From IMG/VR virus record IMGVR_UViG_3300046792_000244, positions 1-64,000 of that record: DNA of 64,000 bases. One strand, 5' to 3'. This DNA is from a virus. This document shows, one piece after another, positions 28,574 through 49,881 of this stretch (positions are counted from its first letter, which is position 1; the number at the start of each line of letters is the position of its first letter). The notes beneath the pieces were generated by a model. It ran no database searches and was not told the origin of the DNA. It saw only the letters and a list, made by a program, of their open reading frames with translations. The translations under genes were made by a program, and so were the position numbers.

Positions 28574-29185
28574 ATGGGTGACTCTGTCTATCCTGTTTTC
28601 CAGGGCCGCATGTGGGACACCACGATGGCCCCGAACTTCAACACCAAGACGCAGGTCTCGGTGTCGCTGTCAGAACTGCGGGCAAGCTTCGCGGCCACGC
28701 CGATCTATCACTTCAAGCTCGGCTACGACGTGCTCAGGGATGGCGTGCAGCACCTCATCACTTACACCGAGATGCGCGACCTCATGGGCTTCTACCTGGC
28801 GCGCCAGGGCCGCTTTGATTCCTTCCTATACGAGCATCCCGATGACCACGAGGTCGTGGCGCAGGTCTTCGCCATAGCCGACGGTGTCACGTCGAACTAC
28901 AACCTCGCGCGCACGCTTGGCGAGTTCACGGAGCGCGTCGCCAATGTCAACGCCGTTGCTGAAATCACGGTGAACGATGTGCCGACATCGAATTACACGC
29001 TCACCAGTCAGGGCGTCGTTCAATTCACGTCACCGCCGGCGCTCGACGCTTCACTCGGCTGGTCTGGCACCTACTATTACCGCTGCAGATTCACCAACGA
29101 CTATCAAGAGTTAAACCAGTTCATGCACCAGCTGTGGAACGCAAAAAGCGTCGAGTTCGACGGCTGTCTGGGGACAAAGTTGTGA
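28574..29185 (+). CDS. DUF2460-like distal tail protein
   Basis: The 203-residue protein resembles the DUF2460 family found in phage and gene-transfer-agent tail tips: VYPVFQGRMWDTTMAPNFNT near the start, YHFKLGYDVLRDG, then GRFDSFLYEHPDDHEV. It follows the tape measure, as expected for a distal tail/baseplate component. The stop overlaps the next gene by GTGA. Confidence 0.8.
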   Translation: MGDSVYPVFQGRMWDTTMAPNFNTKTQVSVSLSELRASFAATPIYHFKLGYDVLRDGVQHLITYTEMRDLMGFYLARQGRFDSFLYEHPDDHEVVAQVFAIADGVTSNYNLARTLGEFTERVANVNAVAEITVNDVPTSNYTLTSQGVVQFTSPPALDASLGWSGTYYYRCRFTNDYQELNQFMHQLWNAKSVEFDGCLGTKL

Positions 29186-30564
29186 AGACGGCCACGCCCG
29201 AACTCATCGCCCTGCTGGCCGACTCCAAGCAGTTCGTCATGTGGGAGACGTACACGATCACGCTGTCGAATGGCAACGTAGTGCAGTACTCCACGCGAGA
29301 CGCCGACGCGCCGATGTTGCCTACGGTCCCCGAATACAACACCAGCTACTTGCTGGACACGTTCACCGGAACCGGCAATCTGTCGACGCACATTGGCGAG
29401 GCCGGATCAAATTGGGCGGCCGTGAATTACCCGCCGCCGCTTGAAGACTATTTGATCAGCGGCGGCGCACTGCACCTACCGCAGGCCGGGCAGGACAACA
29501 TCTTCCTCACGCAATGGGCCCCGAACAACACGACGCTGCAGGACTTTTTCATGGAGGCCAACCTGTCCTGCAACGTTAACGGCGCCTCCGTCAATATCGG
29601 CGTGCAGAGCGCCAACACGTCGGCCTACATGTACGCCTACGCCGACAACAACGGGTCGGCCAACGTGGTCTACGCGAAGCTCCGCATGGACGCCGACGGA
29701 GGCCTCTACGACTCGGGATACGTCGAGATGCCGGTGCTGGCCAACGTGCCGTTCACCATGAGGTTCGAGGCGACGGCCAACAGGACGCACGGCGAGCTCT
29801 TCATCAACAGCGTCTCCGAGGCCAACGGCACCATCTCGTCCAACCACACCCTGGGCTCCATCGGCGTCTCGTACATGCACCTCACCTGCTCCTACGGCTC
29901 TGAGGGCGCCACGCTGTACAGCATCGCCGGGGACAGGATAGCCCCGCCGCCGTTCTTCCTCGACACGTTCACTGGCACCGGCAACCTGACGACGCACGTC
30001 GGAGAGACGGCGAACCCCTTCGTCGTCTACTACATCGGCACCTCCATCGGCACTGCCAACATGGTCCTGACCGGCAGTGGCGGTGTCTACAACAACACAT
30101 TCGTCGGCGAGGGGCAGGTGCTGCGCAGCCAGTACGCCTGCATTCCTTCTGGCACGTCTGACTTTTACGCCCTCGCTGACGTCAGCATGCGGCACAACAC
30201 GGAGGCCTACGCCTACCAGATGGGCGTCTTCCTCGGCAACGACGCCGACTCCACGGAGGTCTCGCTGACGCTGCAGAAGAACGGGCTGGGCGACGGCACC
30301 CCTGTGACAGGCTCGGCGAGCCTCTTCGACGGGAGCTCCTATGGCAACACGTTCGACGCCGGGCTGGTGAACTCCGGCCAGGTGAAGCGGCTGCTCATCG
30401 AGGTGACCAACCTGCGTAAGACGTTTACCTACTTCCTCGACGGGGTGCAGGTGGGCACCACGACGAGGGCCTCGTCGCAGACGTTCGACTTTATAGGCCT
30501 CTACGTCTTCAGCAACGCAGACACCAACACAATCGCGCACCGCGTCGAGGGAGGTCCGCTATGA
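29182..30564 (+). CDS. DUF2163 N-terminal fragment with two inserted lectin-like domains
   Basis: The 460-residue product starts at the GTG of GTGA. Residues 1-45 (TPELIALLADSKQFVMWETY) match the opening of DUF2163-type tail proteins. Then come two paralogous beta domains of about 200 residues, opening with DTFTGTGNLSTHIGE and DTFTGTGNLTTHVGE, Asn/Tyr/Ser/Thr-rich as in LamG/concanavalin-like folds. The DUF2163 sequence resumes in the next gene. AGG (Arg) and ATA (Ile) codons are more frequent here than in nearby genes, suggesting an acquired segment. Confidence 0.7.
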   Translation: MKTATPELIALLADSKQFVMWETYTITLSNGNVVQYSTRDADAPMLPTVPEYNTSYLLDTFTGTGNLSTHIGEAGSNWAAVNYPPPLEDYLISGGALHLPQAGQDNIFLTQWAPNNTTLQDFFMEANLSCNVNGASVNIGVQSANTSAYMYAYADNNGSANVVYAKLRMDADGGLYDSGYVEMPVLANVPFTMRFEATANRTHGELFINSVSEANGTISSNHTLGSIGVSYMHLTCSYGSEGATLYSIAGDRIAPPPFFLDTFTGTGNLTTHVGETANPFVVYYIGTSIGTANMVLTGSGGVYNNTFVGEGQVLRSQYACIPSGTSDFYALADVSMRHNTEAYAYQMGVFLGNDADSTEVSLTLQKNGLGDGTPVTGSASLFDGSSYGNTFDAGLVNSGQVKRLLIEVTNLRKTFTYFLDGVQVGTTTRASSQTFDFIGLYVFSNADTNTIAHRVEGGPL

Positions 30565-31280
30565 GCGACCCGATCGTGAAGAGGGGGACCACCAGGACGG
30601 TCATAGGCACGGAGGTGAGCGAGCTGGAGGTCGTCTTGATGTCTTCAGGCGCCAACACAACGGTGGAAGGCCAGTCGCTGGGTGCCTTTGCTCAGCAGGG
30701 CGGATTCGATGGCGCCGTCGTGCAGGTCGAGCGGCATTTCGCGCCTGATTGGAGCTCAGATACCGGTGCGCTGACGATGTTCGTCGGCACCGTCGGCGAC
30801 GTTACCGTCACGGGCACCGAGGTAACGCTCGCCTTGAAGTCACCGCTTGAGCTGCTGGGCATTCAGATGCCGCGCAACATCTACTCTGGGCAGTGCATTC
30901 GCACGCTCTACGATCAGGGTTGCACGCTTGTCGCATCGGCCCTCACCGACACCATCACGGCAGCTGCCAACAGCACGCGTTTCTCTTTGCTTTCGACTGG
31001 CGATTTTCAGATCAACGGCTACTACGAGTTGGGAACAATCGAGGCCCTTGACGGCCTGAACGTCGGCAAGAAGCGCACGGTGAAGAAATACCTGAACACC
31101 GGATCTGGGCATGGCCAATTCAAGCTGGCCTTCCCGTTTCCATATGCACCGCAGGCCGGCGACACCTTCAGCGCCAAGCCAGGCTGCGACAAGCTGCTCG
31201 ACACCTGCGACAACAAGTTCGGCAATCGCGACAACTTCCGCGGCTGGCCATTCATTCCGCCACCGGAGTCGACGTTGTGA
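30561..31280 (+). CDS. DUF2163-like tail protein, main part
   Basis: The 239-residue product starts at ATGA. It continues the DUF2163 family from its KRGTTRTVIGTEVSELEVV strand, then GALTMFVGTVGD, KSPLELLGIQMPRNIY and the Cys-rich end (CIRTLYDQGC, CDKLLDTCDNKFGN, RGWPFIPPPES). With the first 45 residues of the previous gene it would make one complete family member. Together they probably form part of the tail-tip hub that touches the host. Confidence 0.8.
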   Translation: MSDPIVKRGTTRTVIGTEVSELEVVLMSSGANTTVEGQSLGAFAQQGGFDGAVVQVERHFAPDWSSDTGALTMFVGTVGDVTVTGTEVTLALKSPLELLGIQMPRNIYSGQCIRTLYDQGCTLVASALTDTITAAANSTRFSLLSTGDFQINGYYELGTIEALDGLNVGKKRTVKKYLNTGSGHGQFKLAFPFPYAPQAGDTFSAKPGCDKLLDTCDNKFGNRDNFRGWPFIPPPESTL

Positions 31281-31720
31281 GCCCCGAGCAACGCGACGCC
31301 ATAGTGCGCGAAGCCGAGGGATGGCTGCGCACGCCATGGCATCACAACGCCAGGGTGAAGGGTGCCGGCGTCGACTGCGCCCAGCTCATCATCGCCGCGT
31401 ACGTCAACGCCGGCGTCATTGCCGACGACATCGACACCGGCCAATACTCGCGCGATTGGATGCACCACAGAGAAGAAGAGAGGTTCCTCGCCTGGGTTCG
31501 TCTCTACCTTGATGAAGTCGCAGTGCCTGGCCGCGGCGACGTGGCGGTGTGGCGTTTCGGCAGGTGCTATTCGCATGGCGGCATCGTCGTCAAGTGGCCG
31601 CAGATCATTCACGCCTACCAGCCGGAACGCTGTGTCACGTATTGCGATGCGCTGAGCGGAAAGCTGGCGAAGAAAGACAGGGCCGTGCTCTTCTTCACGG
31701 CAGACAGGAGAACGCAATGA
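31277..31720 (+). CDS. NlpC/P60-type tail peptidase
   Basis: The 147-residue protein begins at GTGA. It has C34 in VDCAQLIIAAY, H100 in YSHGGIV and H112 in IIHAY, the catalytic Cys-His-His set of NlpC/P60 enzymes that cleave peptidoglycan peptides. Its place between the DUF2163 and tip genes matches the tail-tip hydrolase that opens the cell wall during DNA entry. Confidence 0.85.
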   Translation: MSPEQRDAIVREAEGWLRTPWHHNARVKGAGVDCAQLIIAAYVNAGVIADDIDTGQYSRDWMHHREEERFLAWVRLYLDEVAVPGRGDVAVWRFGRCYSHGGIVVKWPQIIHAYQPERCVTYCDALSGKLAKKDRAVLFFTADRRTQ

Positions 31721-33873
31721 GCGGTGGCGGCGACCCCATCAAGATCACGAACACCGAGAACAAGGTCGGTGCGCTGCGCGTTCAGTCGGCGACGCAGGGC
31801 ATGCCCGTGCAGATCGCCTATGGCCTGACGCGTGTGTCTCCGAACATGGCCTGGTACGACGACTTCACGGCGATTGCGCACACCACGGTGACGGAAAGCG
31901 GCGGCGGCGGCGGCAAAGGCGGCGGCGGCGGTGGCGTGACGACGACCGACACGACGTACACCTACACGGTGGCGTGTCTGCTGTCGTTGTGCGAAGGCCC
32001 GATCGGTCACTCCACAGAAGGCAGCCCGCAAATCGTCAACCGCGTGTGGAAGGGAAAAGAAAAGCCAGGCCTTGAATTCGCCGAGTATCAAGGCTCGTGG
32101 AGCAATGCAACAGGCCAGACACCCTACGGCTATATCGTCACGAATCATCCCGAGCAGGCGCTGAGCTATAGAAATACAGCGTACCTCGCATCAGGGTCTC
32201 TCGACCTCGGTTCGTCGACGAGCATTCCAAACTACTCGTTCGAAGTATTCGGCCTGCTCGACCCGAGTTTGTGCACGCCAGATGTGAACCCGAAGGACGT
32301 GTTGATCGACGTGCTGACAGCGCCTAACTACAGCGCCAATTTCCCGAGCGATTATCTCGACGTGCTTGAGAACTTCGGCAACTTCTGTGCGGCCTCGAAT
32401 TTCATGTGCGCGCCGCTGTATTCATCGCAGCGGCCGGCGGCTGACATCGTGAAAGAACTCTGCATGATCGGCAACAGCGCGCCGGTCTGGTCTGAGGGAA
32501 AACTCAAGGTCATTCCATACGGCGACGAAACCGTCGCGCACACGCCGAATGTCTACAGTAATTCCGGCAATTGCACGCTGGGCGCCGAGAGGACATGGAT
32601 TCCAGACCTCACGGTTCAATATGACCTGACCGTCGATGATTTCATTGCCGACCCTGGCACAGATCCCGTCGTCGTTAATCGCAAACGCCAAAGCGATGCG
32701 TATAACTCGGTGCAGGTCGAGATACTTGATCGCGACAATGATTACAACGTGCTCGTGTGTTCGGCCGACGACCTCGGAACCGTCGAGCAGTTCGGTCTGC
32801 GCCAGGCTGATCCCGTCATCATGCATTCGGTGTGCAATGCCAACATCGGTCGCGCCATTGCTCAGGCTCAGCTGCAGCGCACTCTCTACGTGCGAAACAC
32901 CTACGCGTTTCAAGTCGGTTGGAAGTTCGCGCGCCTGGAACCCATGGACATCGTGAGCCTCACCGAGCCGACGATTCCGCTCGACCACTACGCCGTGAGA
33001 ATCACCGAGGTGGAAGAGGACGAAGACGGCATGCTGTCGATCGTCGCCGAGGATCTCAGCGCCGGCACGGGCACGCCGGGAAGCTATGCGACGCAGCCAT
33101 CGTCTGGCGTGTCGATCGACACCTCGATCGCCCCCGGTGATGCTTCGGCACCCGTGATTTTTCAGCCGCCGGTTGAGCTCAGTGGTGTGCCGCAAATCTG
33201 GCTCGGTGCCGCCGGCGGCATCTATTGGGGTGGCGCTCAGGTCTGGGTGAGCGACGACGACGCCTCCTACGTGCAGCTCGGCACGCTTGGATCTGCGGCA
33301 CGCTATGGCGAACTCACTGCCAACTTCCCGGCCGGCGGCGACCCCGATACCACGCACACGCTCAGCGTCGACTTCAACATCTCAGCAGCGACGATGACGA
33401 GCGCGACGCCGGCGCAAGCCGATGGCAACGACACGCTGTCGTGGCTCGACGGTGAGATCGTGGCCTACTCGACGGCGATTCTCACGGCGCCGTACACCTA
33501 CGATTTCACGTCGTACATTCGCCGGGGTCTGCGCTGCAGTTTTGAAGGCAACCACCTGGCGGGCTCGAAATTCATGCGACTCGATGGCGCCGTCGGAAAG
33601 TTCGGCATCGCATCGTCGCGTGTCGGTTCGACGCTCTACCTCAAGTTGGTGAGCTTCAACATCTATGGGCTCGGCCTTCAGGATCTCGCCTCGGTGACGC
33701 CGTATACCTATGTGGTGCAACCGCTGGGCATCGTCGCCGCCAATGGCGTGCTGCCCGATGTCATCACGGCAGAGCAGGTGCTTTGCATCCCACCGGCCAC
33801 GCAGATGTCGATCTTTGGCCGCATGACGGTCTACGGTCGGATCAACTGCGACGGCCGTCTCATCATCAACTAG
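31717..33873 (+). CDS. Tail tip protein (GTA TIM-barrel / phage-tail hub family)
   Basis: The 718-residue protein has the typical early Gly run (ESGGGGGKGGGGGG), then YTYTVACLLSLCEGPIG, a large central beta/alpha hub region (RPAADIVKELCMIGNSAPVW) and Ig-like strands toward the C-terminus. This is the large tip/host-specificity protein of siphoviruses with a DUF2460, DUF2163, NlpC order. Starts at ATGA on the peptidase stop. Confidence 0.8.
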   Translation: MSGGGDPIKITNTENKVGALRVQSATQGMPVQIAYGLTRVSPNMAWYDDFTAIAHTTVTESGGGGGKGGGGGGVTTTDTTYTYTVACLLSLCEGPIGHSTEGSPQIVNRVWKGKEKPGLEFAEYQGSWSNATGQTPYGYIVTNHPEQALSYRNTAYLASGSLDLGSSTSIPNYSFEVFGLLDPSLCTPDVNPKDVLIDVLTAPNYSANFPSDYLDVLENFGNFCAASNFMCAPLYSSQRPAADIVKELCMIGNSAPVWSEGKLKVIPYGDETVAHTPNVYSNSGNCTLGAERTWIPDLTVQYDLTVDDFIADPGTDPVVVNRKRQSDAYNSVQVEILDRDNDYNVLVCSADDLGTVEQFGLRQADPVIMHSVCNANIGRAIAQAQLQRTLYVRNTYAFQVGWKFARLEPMDIVSLTEPTIPLDHYAVRITEVEEDEDGMLSIVAEDLSAGTGTPGSYATQPSSGVSIDTSIAPGDASAPVIFQPPVELSGVPQIWLGAAGGIYWGGAQVWVSDDDASYVQLGTLGSAARYGELTANFPAGGDPDTTHTLSVDFNISAATMTSATPAQADGNDTLSWLDGEIVAYSTAILTAPYTYDFTSYIRRGLRCSFEGNHLAGSKFMRLDGAVGKFGIASSRVGSTLYLKLVSFNIYGLGLQDLASVTPYTYVVQPLGIVAANGVLPDVITAEQVLCIPPATQMSIFGRMTVYGRINCDGRLIIN

Positions 33874-33882
33874 GGGCACGCC

Positions 33883-34347
33883 ATGAGCGAACTCGTTCTC
33901 ACCGCAGAAGCAAATCCGGGCGCGCTCGGTGCCAACTTGTCGGCGTTCTTCTTCAACCTGTCGGGCGTGCCCAGCTATGTCGGAAACGACGGCGTCGAGC
34001 ACAATCTCCTCGCCTCGGGTGGAAACTTGCCGATCGCAAATGCCAACGTCAGCGGCAACATCACGCTGGCCGGCAACTTCGTGGTGTCGTCGGCGAACTC
34101 GGGAGTGACAGGCAATGCCACGATCAACAAGGCGACGGGTCGAGTCATCGCCGGCATTGCCGCCACCGTGCTCGTCGTCACCAACAACATGGTGACGGCC
34201 AACTCGCACGTCTTCGCCCAGCCGTCGGCAAACGATGCTACCGGCCGGGTTACTGCCGTGACACCGGCGGCCGGAAACTTCACAATCTCGCTGACGGCAC
34301 CCGCCGCCAACATGCCGATCGACTTCTTCGTCGTCACCGCCGGGTAA
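33883..34347 (+). CDS. Small putative tail-tip or fibre-associated protein
   Basis: The 154-residue Asn/Ala/Gly/Val-rich beta protein (NLSAFFFNLSGVPSYVG near the start, ITLAGNFVVSSANSG later) follows the tip gene. It resembles decoration or fibre proteins by composition only. I do not recognise the family. Confidence 0.5.
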   Translation: MSELVLTAEANPGALGANLSAFFFNLSGVPSYVGNDGVEHNLLASGGNLPIANANVSGNITLAGNFVVSSANSGVTGNATINKATGRVIAGIAATVLVVTNNMVTANSHVFAQPSANDATGRVTAVTPAAGNFTISLTAPAANMPIDFFVVTAG

Positions 34348-38717: not shown

Positions 38718-38918
38718 TCAGCGCAAAGCCTCATGAATTCGGCGCAGATCGTCGTCGGTCGGCTCACGATCGAGCGACAGCAGCAGCGCCTTCTTGTTGT
38801 CGAACATGCGCGAGACGCCGATCGCGCGCGCTTTTTTCCAATCTGCGGCTTTGCAGTCTTTGCACCATGGGTTGTAGAACTTGTGAGCGCTACAGCAAGC
38901 CGGTGGGAGTGTGCTCAT
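38718..38918 (-). CDS. Small Cys-containing protein
   Basis: The 66-residue product starts at the ATGA on the SDR stop. The N-terminal half has ACCSAHKFYNPWCKDCKAADW, a Cys/His set typical of a small zinc-binding fold, and the C-terminal half is helical. Function unknown. Confidence 0.55.
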   Translation of the reverse strand: MSTLPPACCSAHKFYNPWCKDCKAADWKKARAIGVSRMFDNKKALLLSLDREPTDDDLRRIHEALR

Positions 38919-39601
38919 TTCGCCAGGAACCCGCCGTCGAGCACCACCACCGTACCGGTTGTCCACGGCGCGTCGGTCAACAGCCGGATGGCTTCCCTGG
39001 CCACGACCTCGGCGCTGCCGAAGCCCAGCGGGTGCGCCGCCACGTAGGCATCCTGCGCACCCTGCGTCATGCGCGCCGTAATGCGGTCGTGCATCGGCGT
39101 GCGCACGGCGCCGGCTGCGATGGCGTTCACGCGGATGCCGCGCGGCGCGAGCTCGATGGCGGCCGATCGTGTGAGTGCGTCGACGGCGCCTTTGCCGGCG
39201 CTGTAGGCTGCCATGCCGGGCGCGCCGCGCTGAGCTGCCACGCTCGACATCAGCACCACGCTGCCGCCGTCGTTCATCACGCCCTTCGACGCCACGGCGC
39301 GCAGGATGCCGAAGGCACTCGTCGCCGCCATCATCGACTCCGACCAATTGAGATCGGTGGTCATCCGTAGAGGCGACACCAGCGCGACGCCGGCTGCGTG
39401 AAAAATGCCATCAAGCGGGCCGTGTGCTTGTGCAAGCGCGCGCAGAGCTTGCGTCACCGCGCCGGCATCATTGAAGTCGCAATCGGTGCGGCCAAGTCGG
39501 TGCACGTCGAAGCCGAGGCCTTCGGTGCCGTGCGGGTCGAGCCATTCCCACACCTGATGCCCGATACCAGACGAGGCGCCCGTGATAAGGAAGCGGCTCA
39601 T
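38915..39601 (-). CDS. SDR-family reductase, FabG-like
   Basis: The 228-residue protein has the NAD(P) motif TGASSGIG (7-14) and the catalytic set S120 (MSSVAA), Y133 and K137 (YSAGK). It is a little shorter than typical FabG. In this operon, near an acyl carrier protein and a KAS III, the likely reaction is reduction of a 3-oxoacyl-ACP to a 3-hydroxyacyl-ACP. A sugar-ketone substrate is the alternative. Starts at the ATGA with the gene upstream. Confidence 0.8.
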   Translation of the reverse strand: MSRFLITGASSGIGHQVWEWLDPHGTEGLGFDVHRLGRTDCDFNDAGAVTQALRALAQAHGPLDGIFHAAGVALVSPLRMTTDLNWSESMMAATSAFGILRAVASKGVMNDGGSVVLMSSVAAQRGAPGMAAYSAGKGAVDALTRSAAIELAPRGIRVNAIAAGAVRTPMHDRITARMTQGAQDAYVAAHPLGFGSAEVVAREAIRLLTDAPWTTGTVVVLDGGFLAK

Positions 39602-39795
39602 GGCATCACCCGCCAGACCATGATCAGCATCGAGGCGGCGAAGGCCAGAAAGCCGATGCCGGCGAGCGTGAAGGCGCACCACAGCATGCGTGGGAAGCGC
39701 TCAGGCTTGCCACTGATGACCGTGGGAATGGGATTCTTGAAGAGCTTCACCATCAAGATCCCGAGGAAGATCAAAAACAAACCGATGGCAGCCAT
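39598..39795 (-). CDS. Two-span membrane protein
   Basis: The 65-residue product starts in a TGATG overlap, with AGGAGG four bases upstream. Two membrane spans (about 1-17 and 39-62) are joined by a short basic loop. It lies between glycan-block enzymes. Role unknown. Confidence 0.55.
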   Translation of the reverse strand: MAAIGLFLIFLGILMVKLFKNPIPTVISGKPERFPRMLWCAFTLAGIGFLAFAASMLIMVWRVMP

Positions 39796-40013
39796 CACGC
39801 CTCCTTTTCTGGGGTGACTACGGTCAAATCCACATCGGGATGCATCACGAGGATGCGCTCGGCGATGTGCGCGAGTTCTGGCCGCGATTTGAGCCAGGCT
39901 GAGAAGTGGCGCATCTGCTCGTGGTTGAGTGCCTTTTGCGGCCGCACGACGAGCACGTCGCCGGGTTTCATGGTGAGGCAGGCAACGTCGAGAATGAGTT
40001 GGGTCGCATCCAT
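39795..40013 (-). CDS. Small hypothetical protein in the glycan block
   Basis: The 72-residue product (MDATQLILDVACLTMKPGDV) is a small alpha/beta domain. It ends in a TGATG overlap and lies directly after the KAS III gene. I do not recognise the family. Confidence 0.5.
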   Translation of the reverse strand: MDATQLILDVACLTMKPGDVLVVRPQKALNHEQMRHFSAWLKSRPELAHIAERILVMHPDVDLTVVTPEKEA

Positions 40014-40022
40014 GGCATTCCT

Positions 40023-41015
40023 TCAGAGTTCAACGACCTTGACGAATTCCAGGCCGGTGAGGTCGACCGAAGCCGCGCCCCACGACCAGCCCGAACCGAA
40101 GCCCAGCATGGCGGCGCGCCTGATCATGATTCGATCGCTTGGCATGTGCCACCAGTCGGCCAGCAGAAGTGGAATAGACGCGCTCGAGCAGTTGCCGAAG
40201 CGCTCAAGGTTTGTCGGGATCTGCTTAGGGGAAAAGTGCTCAAGCAGGCGCGTCTTCTTCACGAGGTGGTCGAGCATGAACTTGTTCGCCTGATGGAAGA
40301 GCAGCAGGTCAGGCATGGGCGTGAGCGCCGTCAGGTCTTCGACGAGGCCGGGCACGCGCTTGAGCGTGAAGTTGAAGACGGCGGCGCCATCCATGTGCAT
40401 GTGCGCCCGGTTGTGCGGCGTCACGTTGACTTGGCTCAGCCGGTCGTTGTTGACACCATCGCAGCCCGTGATGAAGAAGTCGCTGGCCATGGGGTCGAAC
40501 TCGACGGCCGTGGCGCTGCCGGCGTCACCGAAGAGCGGCGCCGTGGCTCGATCGGCTGGGTCGCACATGCGGCTGGACACATCGCCGACGAGCAGCAGCA
40601 CGCGCGCATCGGGCCGCGTGGCCAGCTTCTGCGCGAGCTTCAAGCCCTTGACGTAGCCCGAGCACGAGTAGTTGACCTGCACGACATCGCACGACTGGTC
40701 GAGTTGAAGCCTGTGGTGCAGCGTGAAGGCAGGCGCTGGCATGCGCTGATTCGGGGTCTGCGTGACGAAGACGAGCGCGGTGACCGTCTTTGATGCCCAC
40801 TGCAAGCCATTGAGCAGCGCCGCCGCGGCTTCGAAGCACAAGTCCTCGGCGTCGCCGTTGACTGAAATGCGACGCGCATCCACACCCGTCACCTTCGCGG
40901 CTTCTTCGGCCATGAGCCAGCCAGCTGAAGGCAGGATGCCGCTGGGCACGCAGGCCACGATGCCGCGGATGCGGCCGGTGCCGGATTCAAAGAGGTTGCC
41001 GTTGCGTGTCGTCAT
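40023..41015 (-). CDS. 3-oxoacyl-ACP synthase III (KAS III)
   Basis: The 330-residue thiolase-fold protein keeps the full KAS III triad: C118 in VNYSCSGYVKGL, H241 in LFHQANKF and N275 in FGNCSSAS. FGDAGSA and GFGSGWSWGAA glycine motifs are also present. KAS III enzymes start chains by joining an acyl-CoA to malonyl-ACP. Placed next to the ACP (ATGA overlap), it probably makes a short 3-oxoacyl group, for example acetoacetyl-ACP. Start taken at ATG 41015. Confidence 0.88.
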   Translation of the reverse strand: MTTRNGNLFESGTGRIRGIVACVPSGILPSAGWLMAEEAAKVTGVDARRISVNGDAEDLCFEAAAALLNGLQWASKTVTALVFVTQTPNQRMPAPAFTLHHRLQLDQSCDVVQVNYSCSGYVKGLKLAQKLATRPDARVLLLVGDVSSRMCDPADRATAPLFGDAGSATAVEFDPMASDFFITGCDGVNNDRLSQVNVTPHNRAHMHMDGAAVFNFTLKRVPGLVEDLTALTPMPDLLLFHQANKFMLDHLVKKTRLLEHFSPKQIPTNLERFGNCSSASIPLLLADWWHMPSDRIMIRRAAMLGFGSGWSWGAASVDLTGLEFVKVVEL

Positions 41016-41227
41016 GCTGCCGCCAACGCCAGGATGTCGCCCACGGTGGAGCACTTCGCCAATTGCTGCCCGTCGACGAGCACGCCCGCCTTCTCGTCGA
41101 GCAGGCCGATCACGCACACGATGGTGAGGCTGTCCCACGGCATGCCGTCGGCACCCATGACGGTTTCAGGTGTGAGCACCGGGCATTCGAGGATCTCGGC
41201 GAGTCCCTGCAGGAAGTCTTCGTTCAT
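41012..41227 (-). CDS. Acyl carrier protein
   Basis: The 71-residue acidic protein has the phosphopantetheine site in WDSL (Ser33), with a helical bundle before and after, as in ACPs. It starts at an ATGA overlap and its stop overlaps the KAS III start, so both are made together. A host phosphopantetheinyl transferase would have to activate it. Confidence 0.8.
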   Translation of the reverse strand: MNEDFLQGLAEILECPVLTPETVMGADGMPWDSLTIVCVIGLLDEKAGVLVDGQQLAKCSTVGDILALAAA

Positions 41228-42404: not shown

Positions 42405-42434
42405 ACTATGCACGTATTACGCAACACTTGTCAA
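42405..42434 (-). promoter_or_regulatory. Promoter with CTTGACAA dyad, leftward
   Basis: On the minus strand, TTGACA (42429-42434) and CATAGT (42405-42410) are 18 bases apart. The -35 overlaps the stop codon of the gene upstream and sits in GACAAGTGTTG, the dyad shared with the sites near 49.9, 56.7 and 60.2 kb. Confidence 0.6.
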
Positions 42435-42931
42435 GCAGTCGGCGGAACCTGTGCGATATCACCGAAAAGAGGCTTCACGTGCCCAGACGCGACCAGCACT
42501 TCGCGCACGTCGAGCCCAGCCGCCACGGCGCGCATGAGGTCATCGTACGGGAAGTTCAATGCCGCACAGATGCCGCGCACGGTGAGCTCGACCATCACGG
42601 CACCGACTTTGGCCACCTCGTCGCGGTCAATTTGCAGGCCGCGGTCTATGACGGCACGTGCGTCTTCGATCAGCGCCTGCGCGGCTTCGATGAAATCCGG
42701 CACATCGGGTTCGATGTCGTGGTCGTCAACGGCCTTCGCTACCGTCAGCATCAGCCCGCAGCAGCTCGCGGCCAGGCTGGGCAGATCGTTCTTCAGCAGC
42801 GCATTGCCGATCACCTCGTCGCTTATGAGGCGGATATCGCGCCGGCTCATCGTCACGCTTTGCTTAATTTCTGCGACACCATCGGGCACGGGCTTCTTGC
42901 CGGCGCGAACGAGGTCTAGTTCGAACTTCAT
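42431..42931 (-). CDS. Hypothetical protein at the end of the GT operon
   Basis: The 166-residue helical protein (MKFELDLVRAGKKPVPDGVA) has long hydrophobic helices but no membrane span and no recognisable motif. It starts at ATGA on the previous stop. Function unknown. Confidence 0.5.
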   Translation of the reverse strand: MKFELDLVRAGKKPVPDGVAEIKQSVTMSRRDIRLISDEVIGNALLKNDLPSLAASCCGLMLTVAKAVDDHDIEPDVPDFIEAAQALIEDARAVIDRGLQIDRDEVAKVGAVMVELTVRGICAALNFPYDDLMRAVAAGLDVREVLVASGHVKPLFGDIAQVPPTA

Positions 42932-43139: not shown

Positions 43140-45101
43140 TCAATCGTTGCGGTTGCTCATGTCGTCGGCACGGCTGCTCTCTTCGACCCAGGACGTTGAA
43201 CTGATGACAGCGGCGGCGCTGGCCTGCATGTCTTCGTGGTCGCAGTAGATAGCCCACATCGCGTCTTCGATCGCCGATTCCTGGCCGGCTGGCGGCGCGC
43301 CGAAGAAGATGTCCTGCAGGTCGAGCCCGCGCAGAAACTCCCGGTGAGCGTTGCGCATGTCGGCATCTTCGATCAGCTGAATCGCCTTTGCCACGTAGTC
43401 TTCGCGGGTCTGCGCAATGAAGAACTCGTCGATGCCGGCGCGGCGAATCATCATTGCGTCGAAGCGCTCGTGTGGTTCCAGGCCTTCGAGCGTGAGCACG
43501 GGAATGCCCAGCAGGAAGCTGTCGATGTTGCTGTTCGTGCCGCCGAACGGGAAGGTGCTCAGGTGCAGGCAGCACGTGCGCAGGCGCTCCAAATAGGCGT
43601 TGTAGTGCGCGCGCTCGTAGACCAGGGCATCGGGCAGCCAGTCGCGGATCTCGCGCGCCGTCTGGAAGAGGTTCAAGCCCATCATGTTGACGAAGAAGTG
43701 GAAGCGCACCTTCTTCTTCGTCCCCTGCTCGATGTCGCGCAGCGTCGACAAGAAGGGCGCGTTGAGCTTGCACAGCATTGCCGGGATGGCGATGTTCACG
43801 ACTTCGGCGTCGTCTTCGGTGATCAACTCTGGAAACATGGCGTCTGGCCGCATGACGAAGCGCGCCGAGAAATCCGGGTAGGTGATCAACTTCTCGGTGA
43901 ACAGCGAGGCATCGCCGACGGCGCCTTCGTCGCAGAGCACGTAGTCCATCACCGGGCTGCGGCTGCTCGCCGGGTGGCCAAGCGACATCACCTGAATGGG
44001 TGCGAATCGCTCGCTGGCCATGGCGACCCACCATAGCGCCATGCCCACCGACGGGTAATAGATGATGTCGGGCGCGATGGCGTTCACGCGCTTGGCGATG
44101 TCGCTCATCATGATGTTCTCTTGGTCGATGGCGTGCCACTCGTCGAACTCGGCCTTGCCCTGCTCGTCGATGTCGCTCGGCCTGCACATGGCGACGACGT
44201 GGAAGCGCTTGCGCAGCTGGCGGATGACCGGCGCGTAGCAGCGGTACATGGCGTGCAGGCTCGTGAACCACTCGATGCCGACGAGCATCACCGGCTTGCG
44301 TTCGTGTTTGCTCAGCGACAACAGGCGCCTCGCCTTGAGCTCGTCAGCCGTCGGAATCACGACGTCATGCCGGCGCATCTTGTTCGAGAAAATGCGGTGG
44401 ATCGTCGCCTTCGCGTCGTGCTTCGTCTTCGACGTGCCGTAACTCGTATACATGTAGGCGTCGCTCAGCGTCGGCATGGCGGCGTCGCTGATGATGGTGT
44501 CAGCGAAGATGGCGTGCAGCGACGAGATCAGTTCGCGGCGCTGGTGTGCCTGGCTGGCCACCGTGAGCAGCGCCGACAGCATGCCTGCCCACAACGAAAC
44601 GAACTGCTGCGGGCTGCGCTTGAAGGTCTGCTCGAAGTTCAGGGCGAACGATGATCGCAGGCTGTAGGTCATCAGAAACTTGGCGATGCCGGGCCCGTCT
44701 TTGAGTCGCAGTTTGTTGCGGTCGATCTCGCCGGGGTTCTGCGCGAGCTGCGGCAGCATGTGGTCGCTCGTCTCGAAAATGCTGCCGCGGAACAGCAGGT
44801 CGGTGATGGCGTGCTCGCTCGCGATGAAATCAAAGCCATCGGTCGACACGCTGAACTTGTCGTCGACGAGCAGCGCCACGATGGCGGCAGCGAATCGCGA
44901 ATACAAGACAGGCTTCACGCGCTGATCGATCGGGTAGCCGATGAACTCGGCGCCGGCCTTGAGCTTGCGCAGGTTCTTCAAGAGAAGCGCACCCGCGGCT
45001 TCGTACTGATGGCGGTACACCAGGCTTTCGAACTCTTCCAGGCTGATGTTCTCGATGCGCACCTGGCCGGCTGGCACGGGGTCGTTCTGGGCTTCTGTCA
45101 T
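43140..45101 (-). CDS. HMW1C / O-GlcNAc-transferase-like protein glycosyltransferase (GT41-type)
   Basis: The 653-residue protein has an all-helical N-terminal half (about 1-290) and a GT-B-type C-terminal half with two hallmark stretches of HMW1C-like GT41 enzymes: LGHPASSRSPVMDYVLCDE (374-392) and FPFGGTNSNIDSFLLGIPV (517-535). Family members move a hexose from a nucleotide sugar to Asn (HMW1C) or Ser/Thr (OGT) of proteins in the cytoplasm. Beside genes for a nucleotide amino-sugar it is the likely transfer step, though an unusual donor would be needed. ATG 45101 is in an ATGA overlap. Confidence 0.75.
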   Translation of the reverse strand: MTEAQNDPVPAGQVRIENISLEEFESLVYRHQYEAAGALLLKNLRKLKAGAEFIGYPIDQRVKPVLYSRFAAAIVALLVDDKFSVSTDGFDFIASEHAITDLLFRGSIFETSDHMLPQLAQNPGEIDRNKLRLKDGPGIAKFLMTYSLRSSFALNFEQTFKRSPQQFVSLWAGMLSALLTVASQAHQRRELISSLHAIFADTIISDAAMPTLSDAYMYTSYGTSKTKHDAKATIHRIFSNKMRRHDVVIPTADELKARRLLSLSKHERKPVMLVGIEWFTSLHAMYRCYAPVIRQLRKRFHVVAMCRPSDIDEQGKAEFDEWHAIDQENIMMSDIAKRVNAIAPDIIYYPSVGMALWWVAMASERFAPIQVMSLGHPASSRSPVMDYVLCDEGAVGDASLFTEKLITYPDFSARFVMRPDAMFPELITEDDAEVVNIAIPAMLCKLNAPFLSTLRDIEQGTKKKVRFHFFVNMMGLNLFQTAREIRDWLPDALVYERAHYNAYLERLRTCCLHLSTFPFGGTNSNIDSFLLGIPVLTLEGLEPHERFDAMMIRRAGIDEFFIAQTREDYVAKAIQLIEDADMRNAHREFLRGLDLQDIFFGAPPAGQESAIEDAMWAIYCDHEDMQASAAAVISSTSWVEESSRADDMSNRND

Positions 45102-45376
45102 GTCTTGCCTTTCAGGGTGGTTGTGAAAACTTCGTAGTAGTCTTCGTTGCTGAAGCCTGGATAACCAGCGCGTTCGCTGTAGGCTTCCAACCATGCCGTC
45201 GGTGCGATGGCATGGCCAGCGATATTCATGGCGCTCACGAGTTCTTTGCGCAGCGAGAACAGACGATCGACTTCGGCGTTCGCACTTGCCTTGTCAAGCC
45301 ATGCCGAAAGCAGCCGCGTCTCCTGATCGTATTCAGGGTTGCCGCCGATGCCGACGACGTAGATTTCAACGTCCAT
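45098..45376 (-). CDS. Small acidic hypothetical protein
   Basis: The 92-residue product (MDVEIYVVGIGGNPEYDQET) overlaps the dehydratase end by 11 bases and the glycosyltransferase start by ATGA. It has a short strand-rich start and a Tyr-rich tail (YPGFSNEDYYEVF). Unknown. Confidence 0.45.
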   Translation of the reverse strand: MDVEIYVVGIGGNPEYDQETRLLSAWLDKASANAEVDRLFSLRKELVSAMNIAGHAIAPTAWLEAYSERAGYPGFSNEDYYEVFTTTLKGKT

Positions 45377-46343
45377 ACGTCGCCGCATAGTCTGGGTTGT
45401 CGAGGTGCCAGCCGACGATCGACGCCATGCGCTCTTCGATCGGTTCTCGTGGTGCCCAGCCGAGCATGAGACGCGCGTAGTCGTTGTTGACGGCATAGCG
45501 GCGGTCGTTGCCCGGCCTGTCGTTGACGTAGGCAATCTCGTGGCTTTCACCGATCGGCCGCACGGCTGCGCGCACGATCGAAGCGATGGTGAAGTTGCTG
45601 CGCGCGCAATTGCCGCCGAAGTTGTAGACCTCGCCGGGCAGGCCTTTTTCAAGCGCAGCGAGCAGGCCGGCGCAGTGATCCTCAACGTGCAGCCAGTCGC
45701 GCACATTCAGACCGTCGCCGTGAAGCGTCATGGCATCGCCTGAACTTGCCTGACTGATCAACTTCGGAATGAGCTTCTCGGGGTGCTGCCGTGTGCCGTA
45801 GTTGTTGCTGGCATGCGTGACGATCACGGGCAGGCCGAAGGTGCGGTGGTAAGCCCTGGCCATGTGGTCGCCCGCTGCCTTGCTGGCCGCGTAGGGATTG
45901 TTCGGCGCATAGGGGCTGTCTTCTGTCCAGGGCTCGGCATCCGGCGACAGGCTGCCGTACACCTCGTCGGTGCTCACCTGAAGAAACCTGAAGCCGCCAG
46001 CCGGGTTGAAGTCGTTCCAATAGCCCAGGCAGGCGTCGAGCAGGCGCGCCGTACCGACCACGTTGGTTTCGAGGAAGGCGCCGCGGTGACCGATCGAGCG
46101 GTCGACGTGCGACTCGGCAGCCATGTTCACAACCCAGTCTGGGCGGAAGTTGCGCAGGTGATGCTCGACCAGCAGTTGATCACCGATGTCGCAGCGATGC
46201 CAGCGGCGCGCGTACCGCAGGTTCTGCTGCCGGCCGGCATAGGTGAGGGCGTCGAGGATGTAGACCTCGTGGCCTGCGGCTTCAGCGGCGTCGACGAAAT
46301 GTGAGCCGATGAAACCAAGACCTCCGGTGAGAAGAATTTTCAC
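45366..46343 (-). CDS. RmlB-type nucleotide-sugar 4,6-dehydratase
   Basis: The 325-residue extended SDR has the NAD motif GGLGFIGS (7-14), AAESHVDRSI, the catalytic STDEVYG with T125, D126 and E127, and Y151/K155 (YAASK). NNYGTRQHPEKLIPK and RPGNDRRYAV are RmlB signatures. It would turn dTDP-glucose into the 4-keto-6-deoxy sugar. GTG start with GAGGAA upstream. No RmlA (thymidylyltransferase) is in the window, so the host would supply dTDP-glucose. Confidence 0.88.
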   Translation of the reverse strand: MKILLTGGLGFIGSHFVDAAEAAGHEVYILDALTYAGRQQNLRYARRWHRCDIGDQLLVEHHLRNFRPDWVVNMAAESHVDRSIGHRGAFLETNVVGTARLLDACLGYWNDFNPAGGFRFLQVSTDEVYGSLSPDAEPWTEDSPYAPNNPYAASKAAGDHMARAYHRTFGLPVIVTHASNNYGTRQHPEKLIPKLISQASSGDAMTLHGDGLNVRDWLHVEDHCAGLLAALEKGLPGEVYNFGGNCARSNFTIASIVRAAVRPIGESHEIAYVNDRPGNDRRYAVNNDYARLMLGWAPREPIEERMASIVGWHLDNPDYAATYGR

Positions 46344-46581
46344 TTTGCTGTTCCTCTTGTTGTTGACGAATCAAGTAGCTCAAGCCATCAGTCATGGGCG
46401 TCGTCTCCCATGGCGTCGCCAAGTCGCTGGCGATGGTGTCGGCGCTGATGTTGAAGAAGCGCTCGCGCGTGAAGACGAAGCCGGCGCGCTTGAGTTCGTT
46501 GCGCAGCCACGCCGCCATCTGCCATTCGTTTTTGAATTGGATGGCATCGCTGGCCCTGACTTCGAACTCGACGACCTTCAT
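46282..46581 (-). CDS. Small hypothetical protein overlapping the dehydratase start
   Basis: The 99-residue product (MKVVEFEVRASDAIQFKNEW) starts at an ATGA overlap and runs 62 bases into the dehydratase gene, an unusually long overlap. Its first 75 residues look folded and the basic tail (HRRSWFHRLTFRRRR) may be a by-product of the overlap. Confidence 0.45.
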   Translation of the reverse strand: MKVVEFEVRASDAIQFKNEWQMAAWLRNELKRAGFVFTRERFFNISADTIASDLATPWETTPMTDGLSYLIRQQQEEQQSENSSHRRSWFHRLTFRRRR

Positions 46582-47663
46582 GCGAGGCACGCGCTCAGAC
46601 GAGCGCAGACCTGAGCAATATCGGCGGCCGTCAGGCTGGTGTGAAACGGCAAGCCCAGCAGGCAGTCGCTGAGCCCGTCGGCAACCACCATGGGCCGGAT
46701 CATGTTGGCGATGCCGTCAAGGCTCGGCCGCTCGTGTAGAAACGGCTGGTACCACTGCCGGCATTCGATGCCGTGTTTGAGCATTTCATCGGCGACGCGC
46801 GCCGCGTAGTAGCCAGCCGGCAGCAGCACCGGAAACAGTGTGTAGTTGCCGCGCGTTGGCTCGTCTTGAAATACCAGCCGGTGGTCGTCGTTCAGCGCTT
46901 CAAGGTAGGCGTCGTAGACGCGCATCACCCTTTCATGCTTTGCCGCCAGTCGCAAGGCGTCAGCCAGGCCGACAGCGGCGTGGTATTCGCTCATCTTGGC
47001 GTTGGTGGCGCCTGGCCCGGCAAAGCACGCGAGGCCGCGGATTCGATCGGCCATGTCTTGACTTCCGCAGGCCACGGCGCCGCCTTCTCCGCATCCCCAG
47101 AACTTCGTGGCGTGCAGGCTGAAGACGACGTGCACATTCGGTGAGCCGCCGCAATCCTGCTCGGTAAGCGCGCCGGCGGCGTCGATCACCACGGGGATGC
47201 CTGTCTCCTTGGAGAACCCAACCCACTCGGCGAGGTCGACGGGTGAACCGAAGGCGGCGACCGGCATCACGGCGTCGATGCGCTGCGTCATGGCGATCGA
47301 ACGCGCCATGCTGGGTTCAAGTTTCCACGTGTGCGCGTCGACATCGGCCAGGATGGGGATGCAGCCGGCGTTGACGATGGCCAGGGCGCTGGCAACGTAG
47401 GTGACGCTGGGCACGAGCACGCGTGGCAAGTCGTCGAGGCCGGTGCTCGTCGCGCTGAAATCCAGCGCCTTCAGCACGAGTTCAAGACCCAGCGTGGCAT
47501 TCGCCACCGTCACCGTGGGCGCGCACGTGGCGTTGCGCAGCACGCGCTCGAATTCAGCCACCAGGGGGCCGCCGTTGACGTATTGGCGGTTGGCGTCGAT
47601 GCGCCGCAGAAACGGCAGCACCTCGTCGGCCGTCGGCATGTCGGGAATCAGAAGTTTGATCAC
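46578..47663 (-). CDS. DegT/DnrJ/EryC1-type sugar aminotransferase
   Basis: The 361-residue PLP enzyme has D161 (VVIDAAGA) to hold the cofactor and the Schiff-base K187 in SLHATKFWGCGEGGA, the family signature. It would transfer an amino group to the keto sugar made by the dehydratase. No 3,4-ketoisomerase gene is seen, so amination at C4 (a 4-amino-4,6-dideoxyhexose) is the simplest reading. GTG start on a GTGA overlap. Confidence 0.87.
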   Translation of the reverse strand: MIKLLIPDMPTADEVLPFLRRIDANRQYVNGGPLVAEFERVLRNATCAPTVTVANATLGLELVLKALDFSATSTGLDDLPRVLVPSVTYVASALAIVNAGCIPILADVDAHTWKLEPSMARSIAMTQRIDAVMPVAAFGSPVDLAEWVGFSKETGIPVVIDAAGALTEQDCGGSPNVHVVFSLHATKFWGCGEGGAVACGSQDMADRIRGLACFAGPGATNAKMSEYHAAVGLADALRLAAKHERVMRVYDAYLEALNDDHRLVFQDEPTRGNYTLFPVLLPAGYYAARVADEMLKHGIECRQWYQPFLHERPSLDGIANMIRPMVVADGLSDCLLGLPFHTSLTAADIAQVCARLSACLA

Positions 47664-47968
47664 AGGTAGACCCTTCGTTTGGTGTTGTTGCACTGCGTGC
47701 AAACGGTAAACCGCGTCGCGCTAGATGGGCAGGTCGGGCACGGCTCGGTGAAGAAAAGCGCGTGACGATGTGGCAGTTCAAGACCGAAGCCTTCAAACAT
47801 CGACTTCGGCGTGATGTCGACGAAGGCGTGCGGATCTGCAAAGCGCAGCGTCGCCGCCGCGTCTTCGCTGAGCCAAAGCACTTGACCAGCCTTGACGACC
47901 GGCGCCTTGAAGTAGATGCCGTCGTCACCGACCGATGTCGTGCGAACGCAGCCGATGGCGCGCATCAT
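47660..47968 (-). CDS. Small protein with C-terminal zinc-ribbon Cys pairs
   Basis: The 102-residue product has a beta-rich body (about 20-75) and a Cys tail, PCPTCPSSATRFTVCTQC, with two CxxC pairs. It starts inside the end of the oxygenase. Role unknown; perhaps a small phage protein. Confidence 0.5.
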   Translation of the reverse strand: MMRAIGCVRTTSVGDDGIYFKAPVVKAGQVLWLSEDAAATLRFADPHAFVDITPKSMFEGFGLELPHRHALFFTEPCPTCPSSATRFTVCTQCNNTKRRVYL

Positions 47969-48909
47969 GTCGCCGCCCACTTGCCGCGTTGCTGGCGAAA
48001 GCATGCGATGCGCTCGTCGCCCTTGCCGAGAACGCCGGGGAAATCGGCTGGCACATGCGCGCAGATCGCCGCGTCTTCGCGAAACACCTTCTCGTTCAGT
48101 CGCGCCACGCTATCGAAGTAGTTGAACGCCGCCGGGCTGTTGGCTGGTGCCGCGTAGAGACGATGCAGAAAATGCGTGCGGCCGTCAGGCTGCGGCCAGT
48201 AGTTCTGCAGGCTGTAGGTGAAGCCGCGCGTCGAACTCACGGCCGCGTAGGGGTAGAAGTATGTGTGCTCGTAGTCCCATGGCTTATCCATGTTTCGCGG
48301 CATTGCTGAGCCTGGGCTACGAAAGAATTGTCTGAGCTTGTCGAGGCGCTTGGCTTCAGATGAATGCAGGCGCGCGCGCGAAGACCCGTCGGGCGCCGTG
48401 TCACTGCCTAGCACTTCGTCAGTCAGGCCGAGCCGAGCCAGGCTGTCGGCGTGAACGTGCTCGACGTGCTCAAGGTCGAGCGCGTTCTCGACGGCGACCG
48501 TCCAGTCGCAATCCATGGTGAACTGCAGGCGGCTGTAGAGCGTCAAGTCCGGTGGCGCCTCTTCCAAGATGTCGGCGACTAGCATTGGCAGCTGAAGCGA
48601 CACGCACTTAGTCGGGTCGGTCTGGCCGGCCACGAACACCCAGCCGTTGACAAGGCAATGCGACAGCGTCTTCAGGAGGTGAGGCTTCGCGCAGCGCCCG
48701 TGGTATTCACACACCGGCGCGCGGTTGCCTGACGATTCCTTGAAGATGCGCATGCCGCGGTGTGGGCAGCGGTTGTCCCACGCATGCAGGTAGCCCTCGT
48801 AGTTCATCACGGCGATCTCGCGGCCGTCGCCGAACACGGGGAGCGCCACGAAGTCGCCCGGGTTTTGCAGTTCGCTTACGTGGGCGACAAGGTGCCAGCG
48901 GTCAAGCAT
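47965..48909 (-). CDS. Rieske non-heme iron oxygenase
   Basis: The 314-residue protein has the [2Fe-2S] Rieske site C48-x-H50 (CPHRG) and C67-x2-H70 (CEYHG), 16 residues apart, and a downstream helix ENALDLEHVEHVHAD with His148, His151 and His153 near the mononuclear iron site. Such oxygenases hydroxylate or desaturate small molecules with a partner reductase, not seen here. In this operon the sugar or acyl group is the likely substrate. Confidence 0.82.
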   Translation of the reverse strand: MLDRWHLVAHVSELQNPGDFVALPVFGDGREIAVMNYEGYLHAWDNRCPHRGMRIFKESSGNRAPVCEYHGRCAKPHLLKTLSHCLVNGWVFVAGQTDPTKCVSLQLPMLVADILEEAPPDLTLYSRLQFTMDCDWTVAVENALDLEHVEHVHADSLARLGLTDEVLGSDTAPDGSSRARLHSSEAKRLDKLRQFFRSPGSAMPRNMDKPWDYEHTYFYPYAAVSSTRGFTYSLQNYWPQPDGRTHFLHRLYAAPANSPAAFNYFDSVARLNEKVFREDAAICAHVPADFPGVLGKGDERIACFRQQRGKWAAT

Positions 48910-49273
48910 GATCGCGCTCCTGTCTCACGAGGTCGTGCACTTCCCGATAGAGGCGCTCGGCGAGTTCGCCTGAATCCATGCCGCGGTGGCTGTCGAGCAT
49001 GTCGGCCAAGCCTTTGCGAATGGCTGGCGGCACGAACAAAGGAACGGGAGTGATGGTGACGCCGTTGATCTTCAGCACCGTGTCGCGGCCCTGATATAGG
49101 TCTTTTTCGCGGCCATCGGTAACAACCGTTATGCCGTACACGGCCTTGCGCTTTGCTTCCATCAACATGGCCTCGTGGTCGTCGCGCGGCACTTCCAAGC
49201 CAGTCAGCCTCACGCCCGGGAACTTGCGCGCAATTTCTTCGCAAGCCATCGTCACATCGATCAGGTTTCTCAC
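48902..49273 (-). CDS. Hypothetical protein in the glycan block
   Basis: The 123-residue product (MRNLIDVTMACEEIARKFPG) is helical with a central beta part (VLKINGVTITPVPLFVP). It overlaps the acyltransferase (ATGA) and the oxygenase (8 bases). I do not recognise the family. Confidence 0.5.
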   Translation of the reverse strand: MRNLIDVTMACEEIARKFPGVRLTGLEVPRDDHEAMLMEAKRKAVYGITVVTDGREKDLYQGRDTVLKINGVTITPVPLFVPPAIRKGLADMLDSHRGMDSGELAERLYREVHDLVRQERDHA

Positions 49274-49881
49274 TTCACTCTCCTTGCTGGATTGCCGAAA
49301 ACGGTGGCGCCGGCTGGCACGTCTTGCACGACGACGGCACCGGCGCCGATGATGGCGTCATTGCCGATCGTCACGTCGGGCAGCACCCGCGCGCCGCTGC
49401 CGAAGAACACGCGGTCGCCGATCGTCACGCGCCCGCAGATGTCGACGTGCGAACTCAGCGTGCAGAAGTCGCCGATCCTCACGTCGTGTCCCACCGTGGT
49501 GTGCGTGTTCAGCACGCAGGCGCATCCCAGACTGGCGTCGATGCTGATCAGCGAATACGGCAGCATGATCAGGCCACGCAAGGCGCTGGCATGGTTCACC
49601 TGAATGGCGGTGCGGTGCCGGAAATTTCCGATGCCTATACGCTGAGACGCGCGTCGCCACACCTGCGCACGCATGTTCGGGTCGGCGATGGCGATGTGGG
49701 CAACGTCTTCGGCCTCAAAGTTAAAGGCGTCGAGCGGCGTGGCGGTGTGGCCGCTGAACTTGACGCGGCCGATCTTGTCGTCAATGAAGATGCAAGGCGG
49801 CGACGTGCTCGGCCCTTCGCATCCCCACTCATAGACCTCGCGGCCGAGTGATCCCGCGCCGATGATGATTCTTCTGCTCAT
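49270..49881 (-). CDS. NeuD/PglD-like hexapeptide-repeat N-acyltransferase
   Basis: The 203-residue protein has an N-terminal nucleotide-binding-type domain (IIGAGSLGREV) and C-terminal left-handed beta-helix repeats (VGHDVRIGDF, RVTIGDRVFF, VTIGNDAIIG), ending in NPARRV, as in PglD and NeuD. The catalytic His is probably H127 or H132 (NTHTTVGHDV). PglD-type enzymes acylate the 4-amino group of a nucleotide amino-sugar. First gene of the operon, behind a good promoter. Confidence 0.82.
   Translation of the reverse strand: MSRRIIIGAGSLGREVYEWGCEGPSTSPPCIFIDDKIGRVKFSGHTATPLDAFNFEAEDVAHIAIADPNMRAQVWRRASQRIGIGNFRHRTAIQVNHASALRGLIMLPYSLISIDASLGCACVLNTHTTVGHDVRIGDFCTLSSHVDICGRVTIGDRVFFGSGARVLPDVTIGNDAIIGAGAVVVQDVPAGATVFGNPARRVK

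Follow-up and report, generated by a model that had tools for sequence, protein, structure and literature searches.

Genes for an acyl carrier protein (ACP), a 3-ketoacyl-ACP synthase III (KAS III) and a short-chain dehydrogenase/reductase (SDR) occur together in a biosynthetic cassette of IMG/VR virus record IMGVR_UViG_3300046792_000244, of whose 65,089 bases a stretch of 64,000 (the window) was analysed. That the setting is truly a phage is shown by terminase, portal, tape measure and tail genes on the same 65,089-base record, with PHROG matches for the tail. The cassette occupies the minus strand from 49881 to 38915, beginning with a sugar N-acyltransferase (NAT) and continuing with a Rieske oxygenase, a DegT aminotransferase, a deoxythymidine diphosphate (dTDP)-glucose 4,6-dehydratase, a GT41 glycosyltransferase, the helical protein u166, the ACP, the KAS III and, last, the SDR (Table 1). 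Overlaps of about 4 bp between several neighbours (ACP and KAS III, 4 bp; NAT and the open reading frame (ORF) at 48902-49273; the ORF at 47660-47980 and DegT) are as expected of one transcription unit, and two small ORFs separate the KAS III and SDR genes. The original prediction had singled out the ACP, KAS III and SDR as a mini fatty-acid system. Their reading frames are intact and their identities agree with family profiles (weakly, below the cut-off, for the ACP) and with conservation in relatives, but the genes belong instead to a larger amino-sugar and GT41 cassette.

Single-sequence queries gave one relative or none, and relatives were recovered with alignments as queries. Related cassettes are present in IMG/VR 3300047160_011983 (L002), 3300049483_000112 (L005), 3300032156_000830 (L006, partial) and 3300031730_000013 (L010), in 3300031152_000006/_000005 (L011 and L053, one cassette split inside GT41) and in a contig binned with a betaproteobacterial metagenome-assembled genome (L012). 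The order NAT-Rieske-DegT-(RmlB)-GT41-u166-ACP-KAS III-SDR is kept in seven phages including that of the window, most proteins being about 40-55% identical to those of the window and ACP, u166 and SDR lower in some phages. Chance is excluded, since six further phages keep the entire gene order at this level of identity. One and the same tail module lies convergent to the cassette in the window, L002, L006, L010, L012 and L053; the stretch of L005 that was examined had no match to it. The u166 protein is found at 32-45% identity across six phages and in L053, and additionally in three other loci (L063, L066 and L067), and is possibly a GT41 partner. Its AlphaFold model (predicted local distance difference test (pLDDT) 83) had no significant fold match; a HisE/MazG-like assignment was rejected, the rows concerned (Z up to 8.1) being within the chance range for helical proteins.

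Table 1 Features of the cassette and of the facing tail module (window coordinates).
Feature	Position	Strand	Evidence or remark
NeuD/PglB/VioB-family sugar N-acyltransferase (VioB role)	49270..49881	-	TIGR03570, catalytic His
Small protein	48902..49273	-	Overlaps both neighbours; no Pfam/NCBIfam/PHROG match
Rieske-type oxygenase	47965..48909	-	PF00355 + VanA_C
Small protein between Rieske and DegT	47660..47980	-	One homologue, same place in L005
DegT/DnrJ/EryC1 aminotransferase (VioA role)	46578..47663	-	PF01041 E 3e-48
dTDP-glucose 4,6-dehydratase (RmlB-like)	45366..46343	-	TIGR01181 E 3e-105
GT41 glycosyltransferase related to HMW1C/NGT	43140..45101	-	E 2e-74 to AaNGT 8p0o
u166, conserved all-helical protein	42431..42931	-	After GT41 in all seven cassettes
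Acyl carrier protein (acp role)	41012..41227	-	D-S site; profile match to ACP structures E 9e-4
KAS III condensing enzyme (VioS role)	40023..41015	-	Pfam ACP_syn_III/III_C
SDR / 3-oxoacyl reductase (VioR role)	38915..39601	-	PF13561 E 7e-39
Tail module: tail assembly, NlpC/P60, host-specificity-like tail protein, LamG-like protein	28574..34347	+	Candidate acceptors

At the right end of the record, window 60899-63992 encodes a DNA methylase (N6_N4_Mtase) and, after it, a protein with a PAPS-reductase domain.

Acyl-supply and sugar-nucleotide enzymes

The catalytic residues named in the original prediction are in place in all three acyl-supply proteins. The KAS III triad Cys118-His241-Asn275 is invariant across six phage homologues and aligns with C112/H244/N274 of Escherichia coli FabH in all seven phage enzymes. 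The same alignment shows W32, R36, F87, N210 and R249 of FabH replaced in all seven, and the KAS III scores below the TIGR00747 cut-off (113.5 versus 292.1 bits), outside FabH in the strict sense. In FabH, W32 and R36 hold acetyl-coenzyme A (CoA) in position and F87 limits chain length. F87 favours acetyl-CoA (PMC3734052) and R36 helps to position the substrate (PMC10054515). As the triad is kept but these substrate residues are replaced, condensation by the phage KAS III is likely, judging from sequence, and its primer and chain length are much less certain. Matches to KAS III in a cultured-phage collection were set aside, the long ones having <31% identity and most being in short unannotated records that look like bacterial contamination.

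The SDR has Ser, Tyr and Lys in the window; TGxxxGxG, the Ser and Tyr133 are invariant in the phage relatives aligned, and Lys137 is present in all but one of them. The ACP is weak by profile (PF00550, 14.4 bits against a cut-off of 20.8), with the D-S site that includes the predicted serine, and the position of the gene, conserved in five phages. The absence of a full elongation set also held: neither dehydratase nor enoyl reductase was seen among the annotated cassette genes, the record as a whole not having been scanned at family level. Neither a phosphopantetheinyl transferase (ACPS family) nor RmlA (NTP_transferase family) turned up in the phage records searched; dTDP-glucose and the loading of the ACP must therefore come from the host.

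The NAT belongs to the NeuD/PglB/VioB family (TIGR03570, 162.0 bits against a cut-off of 160.8), and its catalytic His lines up with the histidine that entry 4eaa of perosamine N-acetyltransferase carries as Asn. The RmlB-like dehydratase scores 352 bits to TIGR01181 (cut-off 365.1, E 3e-105), and the DegT motif with the pyridoxal phosphate lysine, HATKF, is invariant in both phages aligned. Iron-site histidines of the Rieske oxygenase (CxH, CxxH and HxxxxH) are invariant in six phages, and this enzyme is a recurrent partner of the acyl-sugar module, since it also clusters with it in a bacterial genome (L047) and in unrelated phages. The Rieske enzyme CMAH hydroxylates the N-acyl group of CMP (cytidine monophosphate)-sialic acid; by analogy, the phage oxygenase would act on the sugar or its acyl chain, perhaps hydroxylating the latter.

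The GT41 clade and its acceptor

The AlphaFold model of the phage GT41 (pLDDT 72) matched HMW1C/N-glycosyltransferase (NGT) structures (AaNGT/ApNGT) with Z 24 over 531 residues, versus Z 14 for OGT/SPINDLY structures, and the protein carries the HMW1C N-terminal acceptor domain PF18071. Its score is below the NCBIfam NF049992 equivalog cut-off (304 versus 1000 bits). A wider scan gave 18 phage GT41 loci, from which 17 sequences formed one clade in the tree (support 98/92), with a bacterial GT41 (L020/L033) as its sister and both together separate from the NGT clade (100/100). The HMW1C-type pyrophosphate site is kept in the phage clade: AaNGT H276, R280, G369, H370, K440, T519, N520 and D524 are present in all phage GT41s. 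The substitutions S277A, T437M and H494R are likewise found in all of them, H214 of AaNGT is also changed, and R177 is replaced in 17 of the 17 sequences, with D215 kept in 15. Uracil is contacted by H494 in AaNGT, where R177 and D215 recognise the +2 Ser/Thr and the mutants R177A and D215A are inactive (PMC10507012). The H494R change and the loss of R177 thus fit another sugar nucleotide and another acceptor rule, and these alignments argue that the phage GT41 should not be filed as an NGT. It had no match in the cultured-phage collection. Among 399 genomes from the order that includes Methylibium (G009), bacterial GT41s reached at most 34% identity to it, which points to no recent bacterial donor there.

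Acyl supply has changed within this clade. Eight phage loci (L057, L059-L063, L065 and L066) combine GT41 with an AMP-binding enzyme (identity checked with Pfam in L061 and L066) in place of ACP, KAS III and SDR, and usually also encode DegT, RmlB and a hexapeptide NAT. DegT and/or NAT thus still accompany GT41 where the AMP-binding enzyme has replaced the acyl module, as they do in bacterial L033, which counts in favour of the pathway proposed below. Contigs of this type often have an ORF resembling GFO/IDH/MocA oxidoreductases, and L061 encodes a GT2/radical-SAM fusion of 711 amino acids. The arrangement ACP-KAS III-SDR-NAT-Rieske recurs in L069, a distant relative. The acyl-sugar module also exists apart from GT41, in bacterial L047 (DegT-ACP-KAS III-SDR-Rieske-NAT-KAS III) and in two unrelated phages (L007 10001-14081 and L008 8272-12927), which have two KAS III genes, SDR and NAT in larger sugar clusters, with ACP and Rieske in L008 as well. 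Bacterial GT41s occur in a DegT-GT41-NAT operon (L033 8835-12507) and in a NAT-GT41 pair adjoining a 2067-amino-acid adhesin-like ORF (L034 9907-18544), both possibly bacterial glycoprotein systems using N-acyl amino sugars.

Gene position bears on the acceptor. GT41 adjoins the major head protein gene in L070 and L072 and tail and tail-fibre genes in L068, and an integrase was present in only one of six records searched and not in that of the window. These structural-gene locations, together with the constant tail neighbourhood and the five records without integrase, favour a virion protein (tail or capsid), which we consider somewhat probable as the acceptor. The tyrosine integrase is close to the cassette of one relative (G001; L002 1484-2488), and a temperate lifestyle is therefore possible for at least one member of the group. 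N-X-S/T occurred 134 times among 15 tail-module proteins of five phages, versus 82 expected (1.6x); the reversed motif, at 127, was similarly enriched, so that there is no sequon-specific signal for a tail acceptor.

Proposed pathway and alternatives

We propose that the ACP, KAS III and SDR provide the acyl group for an N-acylated 4-amino-4,6-dideoxy sugar, which the phage GT41 then puts on protein, a reading we hold to be reasonably probable as a whole. Two of its parts are firmer: we have good confidence both that the cassette makes a sugar nucleotide with an N-acyl group and that GT41 acts on protein. The presence in the same cassette of an aminotransferase, a dTDP-glucose dehydratase, a Rieske oxygenase and GT41 indicates that its purpose is a glycan, not a lipid. 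In the proposed pathway, dTDP-glucose would be made, and the ACP loaded, by the host. The RmlB-like enzyme, or a host enzyme in phages without RmlB, would provide dTDP-4-keto-6-deoxyglucose for amination at C4 by DegT. A primer acyl thioester and malonyl-ACP would be condensed by KAS III and the product reduced by the SDR to 3-hydroxyacyl-ACP, from which the VioB/PglD-type enzyme would move the 3-hydroxyacyl group to the sugar amine, the donor in this step being an ACP or possibly a CoA thioester. The Rieske oxygenase may further oxidise the product, perhaps hydroxylating the acyl chain, and GT41 would transfer the finished sugar from the nucleotide to a protein in the cytoplasm, most probably a tail or capsid protein of the virion. 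Gene content and order, conservation, family membership, catalytic residues and the GT41 clade come directly from the sequences; each of these reactions is inferred, and so are the acyl chain, the isomer of the sugar, the target of the Rieske enzyme, the use of dTDP as nucleotide and the acceptor.

The original prediction of a single-round 3-hydroxyacyl-ACP stands in its core, which is well supported by analogy to the viosamine island of Pseudomonas syringae and by co-occurrence in seven phages, and is less certain in chain length, with W32, R36 and F87 replaced; 3-hydroxybutyryl is our best guess, made by analogy. The predicted acyl transfer by a PglD-like NAT is in keeping with the location of that enzyme in the same cassette and with the chemistry proposed for vioS-vioR-acp-vioB (PMC3927599). 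A broader formulation is tentative, with a little less than an even chance: self-contained virion glycosylation, in which a new GT41 clade would use dTDP-linked, N-acylated, Rieske-oxidised 4-amino-4,6-dideoxy sugars with interchangeable acyl modules and an acceptor rule other than Asn-X-Ser/Thr.

Several observations weigh against the proposed pathway. The KAS III has no equivalents of FabH W32, R36, F87 and R249, which makes its primer uncertain; the SDR of L002 (13799-14539) has Tyr-Ser-Gly-Ala-Arg in place of YxxxK in an otherwise intact cassette; RmlB is found only in the window and L011, and is missing from five of the seven cassettes of this type; the acceptor-recognition residue R177 is lost in all phage GT41s; and no acceptor protein was identified.

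The alternative that survives best keeps the same sugar and GT41 and takes a host surface or flagellar protein as acceptor, the phage thereby altering the infected cell or lysogen, for example by a superinfection block. The closest known chemistry decorates flagellin (PMC3927599), HMW1C enzymes decorate adhesins, and G001 has its integrase close to the cassette. We nevertheless regard a host acceptor as unlikely, at about one chance in four, since the record of the window and four others searched have no integrase, diverged phages keep the cassette opposite the tail module, and GT41 lies within structural genes in L068, L070 and L072. That the product is a diffusible small molecule (a signal or an antibiotic-like sugar conjugate), itself glycosylated by GT41, is improbable: proteins are the substrates of GT41s with a known function, and the HMW1C acceptor domain is retained in the phage enzyme, even though KAS III, DegT and Rieske enzymes are also known in secondary metabolism and bacterial L013 has KAS III-SDR near an AMP-binding enzyme. 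A true fatty-acid auxiliary set, raising host lipid synthesis during infection, is still less probable. Its three proteins are homologous to FabH, FabG and AcpP, but the cassette has no visible dehydratase or enoyl reductase, in all seven phages the acyl genes sit among genes for an amino sugar and a glycosyltransferase, and the KAS III, far below the FabH cut-off, has lost the CoA-site residues of FabH. Glycosyltransferases are often used by phages to modify DNA against restriction, and there is a DNA methylase on the record, but decoration of phage DNA as in T-even phages is the least probable of all, GT41 being a protein-modifying family and no modified-base synthesis gene having been recognised in the cassette (a genome-wide search was not made).

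If the proposed acylated-sugar pathway is correct, phages assemble an elaborate acylated sugar mostly by means of enzymes of their own and attach it to protein, probably of their own particles, where such tagging could affect receptor binding, particle stability or escape from host defences. A clade of GT41 enzymes in which the sugar-nucleotide site is altered would be useful for cytoplasmic glycoengineering beyond uridine diphosphate (UDP)-glucose, and with two acyl-supply modules found next to the same transferase family, donor specificity can be tested directly.

Comparison with known systems

The closest known system is the viosamine island of P. syringae, which encodes the aminotransferase vioA, the N-acyltransferase vioB, the KAS III vioS, the reductase vioR, acp, vioM and vioT, and whose proposed product is dTDP-N-(3-hydroxy-1-oxobutyl)-2-O-methylviosamine, for flagellin (PMC3927599). 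The proposed chemistry is backed by mutants and mass spectrometry, modified viosamine being lost from flagellin in a vioR mutant (PMC3927599). Compared by gene list, the phage cassette has the core set of this island, shared also with the flagellin glycosylation island of Pseudomonas aeruginosa PAK, in one cluster: aminotransferase (DegT), VioB-type NAT, KAS III, 3-oxoacyl reductase (SDR) and ACP. The P. syringae island differs in its bacterial chromosome, its flagellin target, its methyltransferase and VioT (1,173 amino acids), which extends a rhamnose chain, and the phage cassette in Rieske, RmlB and GT41, none of which is among the seven ORFs of the island.

The phage GT41 shares with the HMW1C-like AaNGT and ApNGT the fold, the N-terminal acceptor domain and the pyrophosphate-site residues; it differs from AaNGT in forming a separate clade, in the changes at R177, H214, S277, T437 and H494, and in being paired with its own amino-sugar pathway instead of the UDP-glucose of NGTs. 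With PglD and perosamine N-acetyltransferase the phage NAT has in common a family score above the cut-off and the catalytic His. Solved enzymes of that group use acetyl-CoA, whereas the neighbours of the phage NAT are predicted to supply 3-hydroxyacyl-ACP. The phage KAS III has the Cys-His-Asn triad of E. coli FabH and not its W32, R36, F87, N210 and R249.

Among other viruses, giant viruses have sugar pathways for fibrils (PMC10117803), and virion glycosylation has been proposed in mycobacteriophages (PMC11256854). There, too, sugar or glycosyltransferase genes serve the virus's own particle; these viruses are unrelated to the phage of the window, and the abstract of neither paper mentions an ACP/KAS III module or a relative of the GT41 NGTs. 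No earlier report of such a phage cassette was found in the open literature searched, subscription papers and preprints being outside the scope of that search. The sugar chemistry is known from bacteria, and the phage cassette, with a GT41 clade of its own, seems to be a new version of this known type; the novelty is the phage setting and the GT41, not the idea of an ACP-borne acyl group on a sugar.

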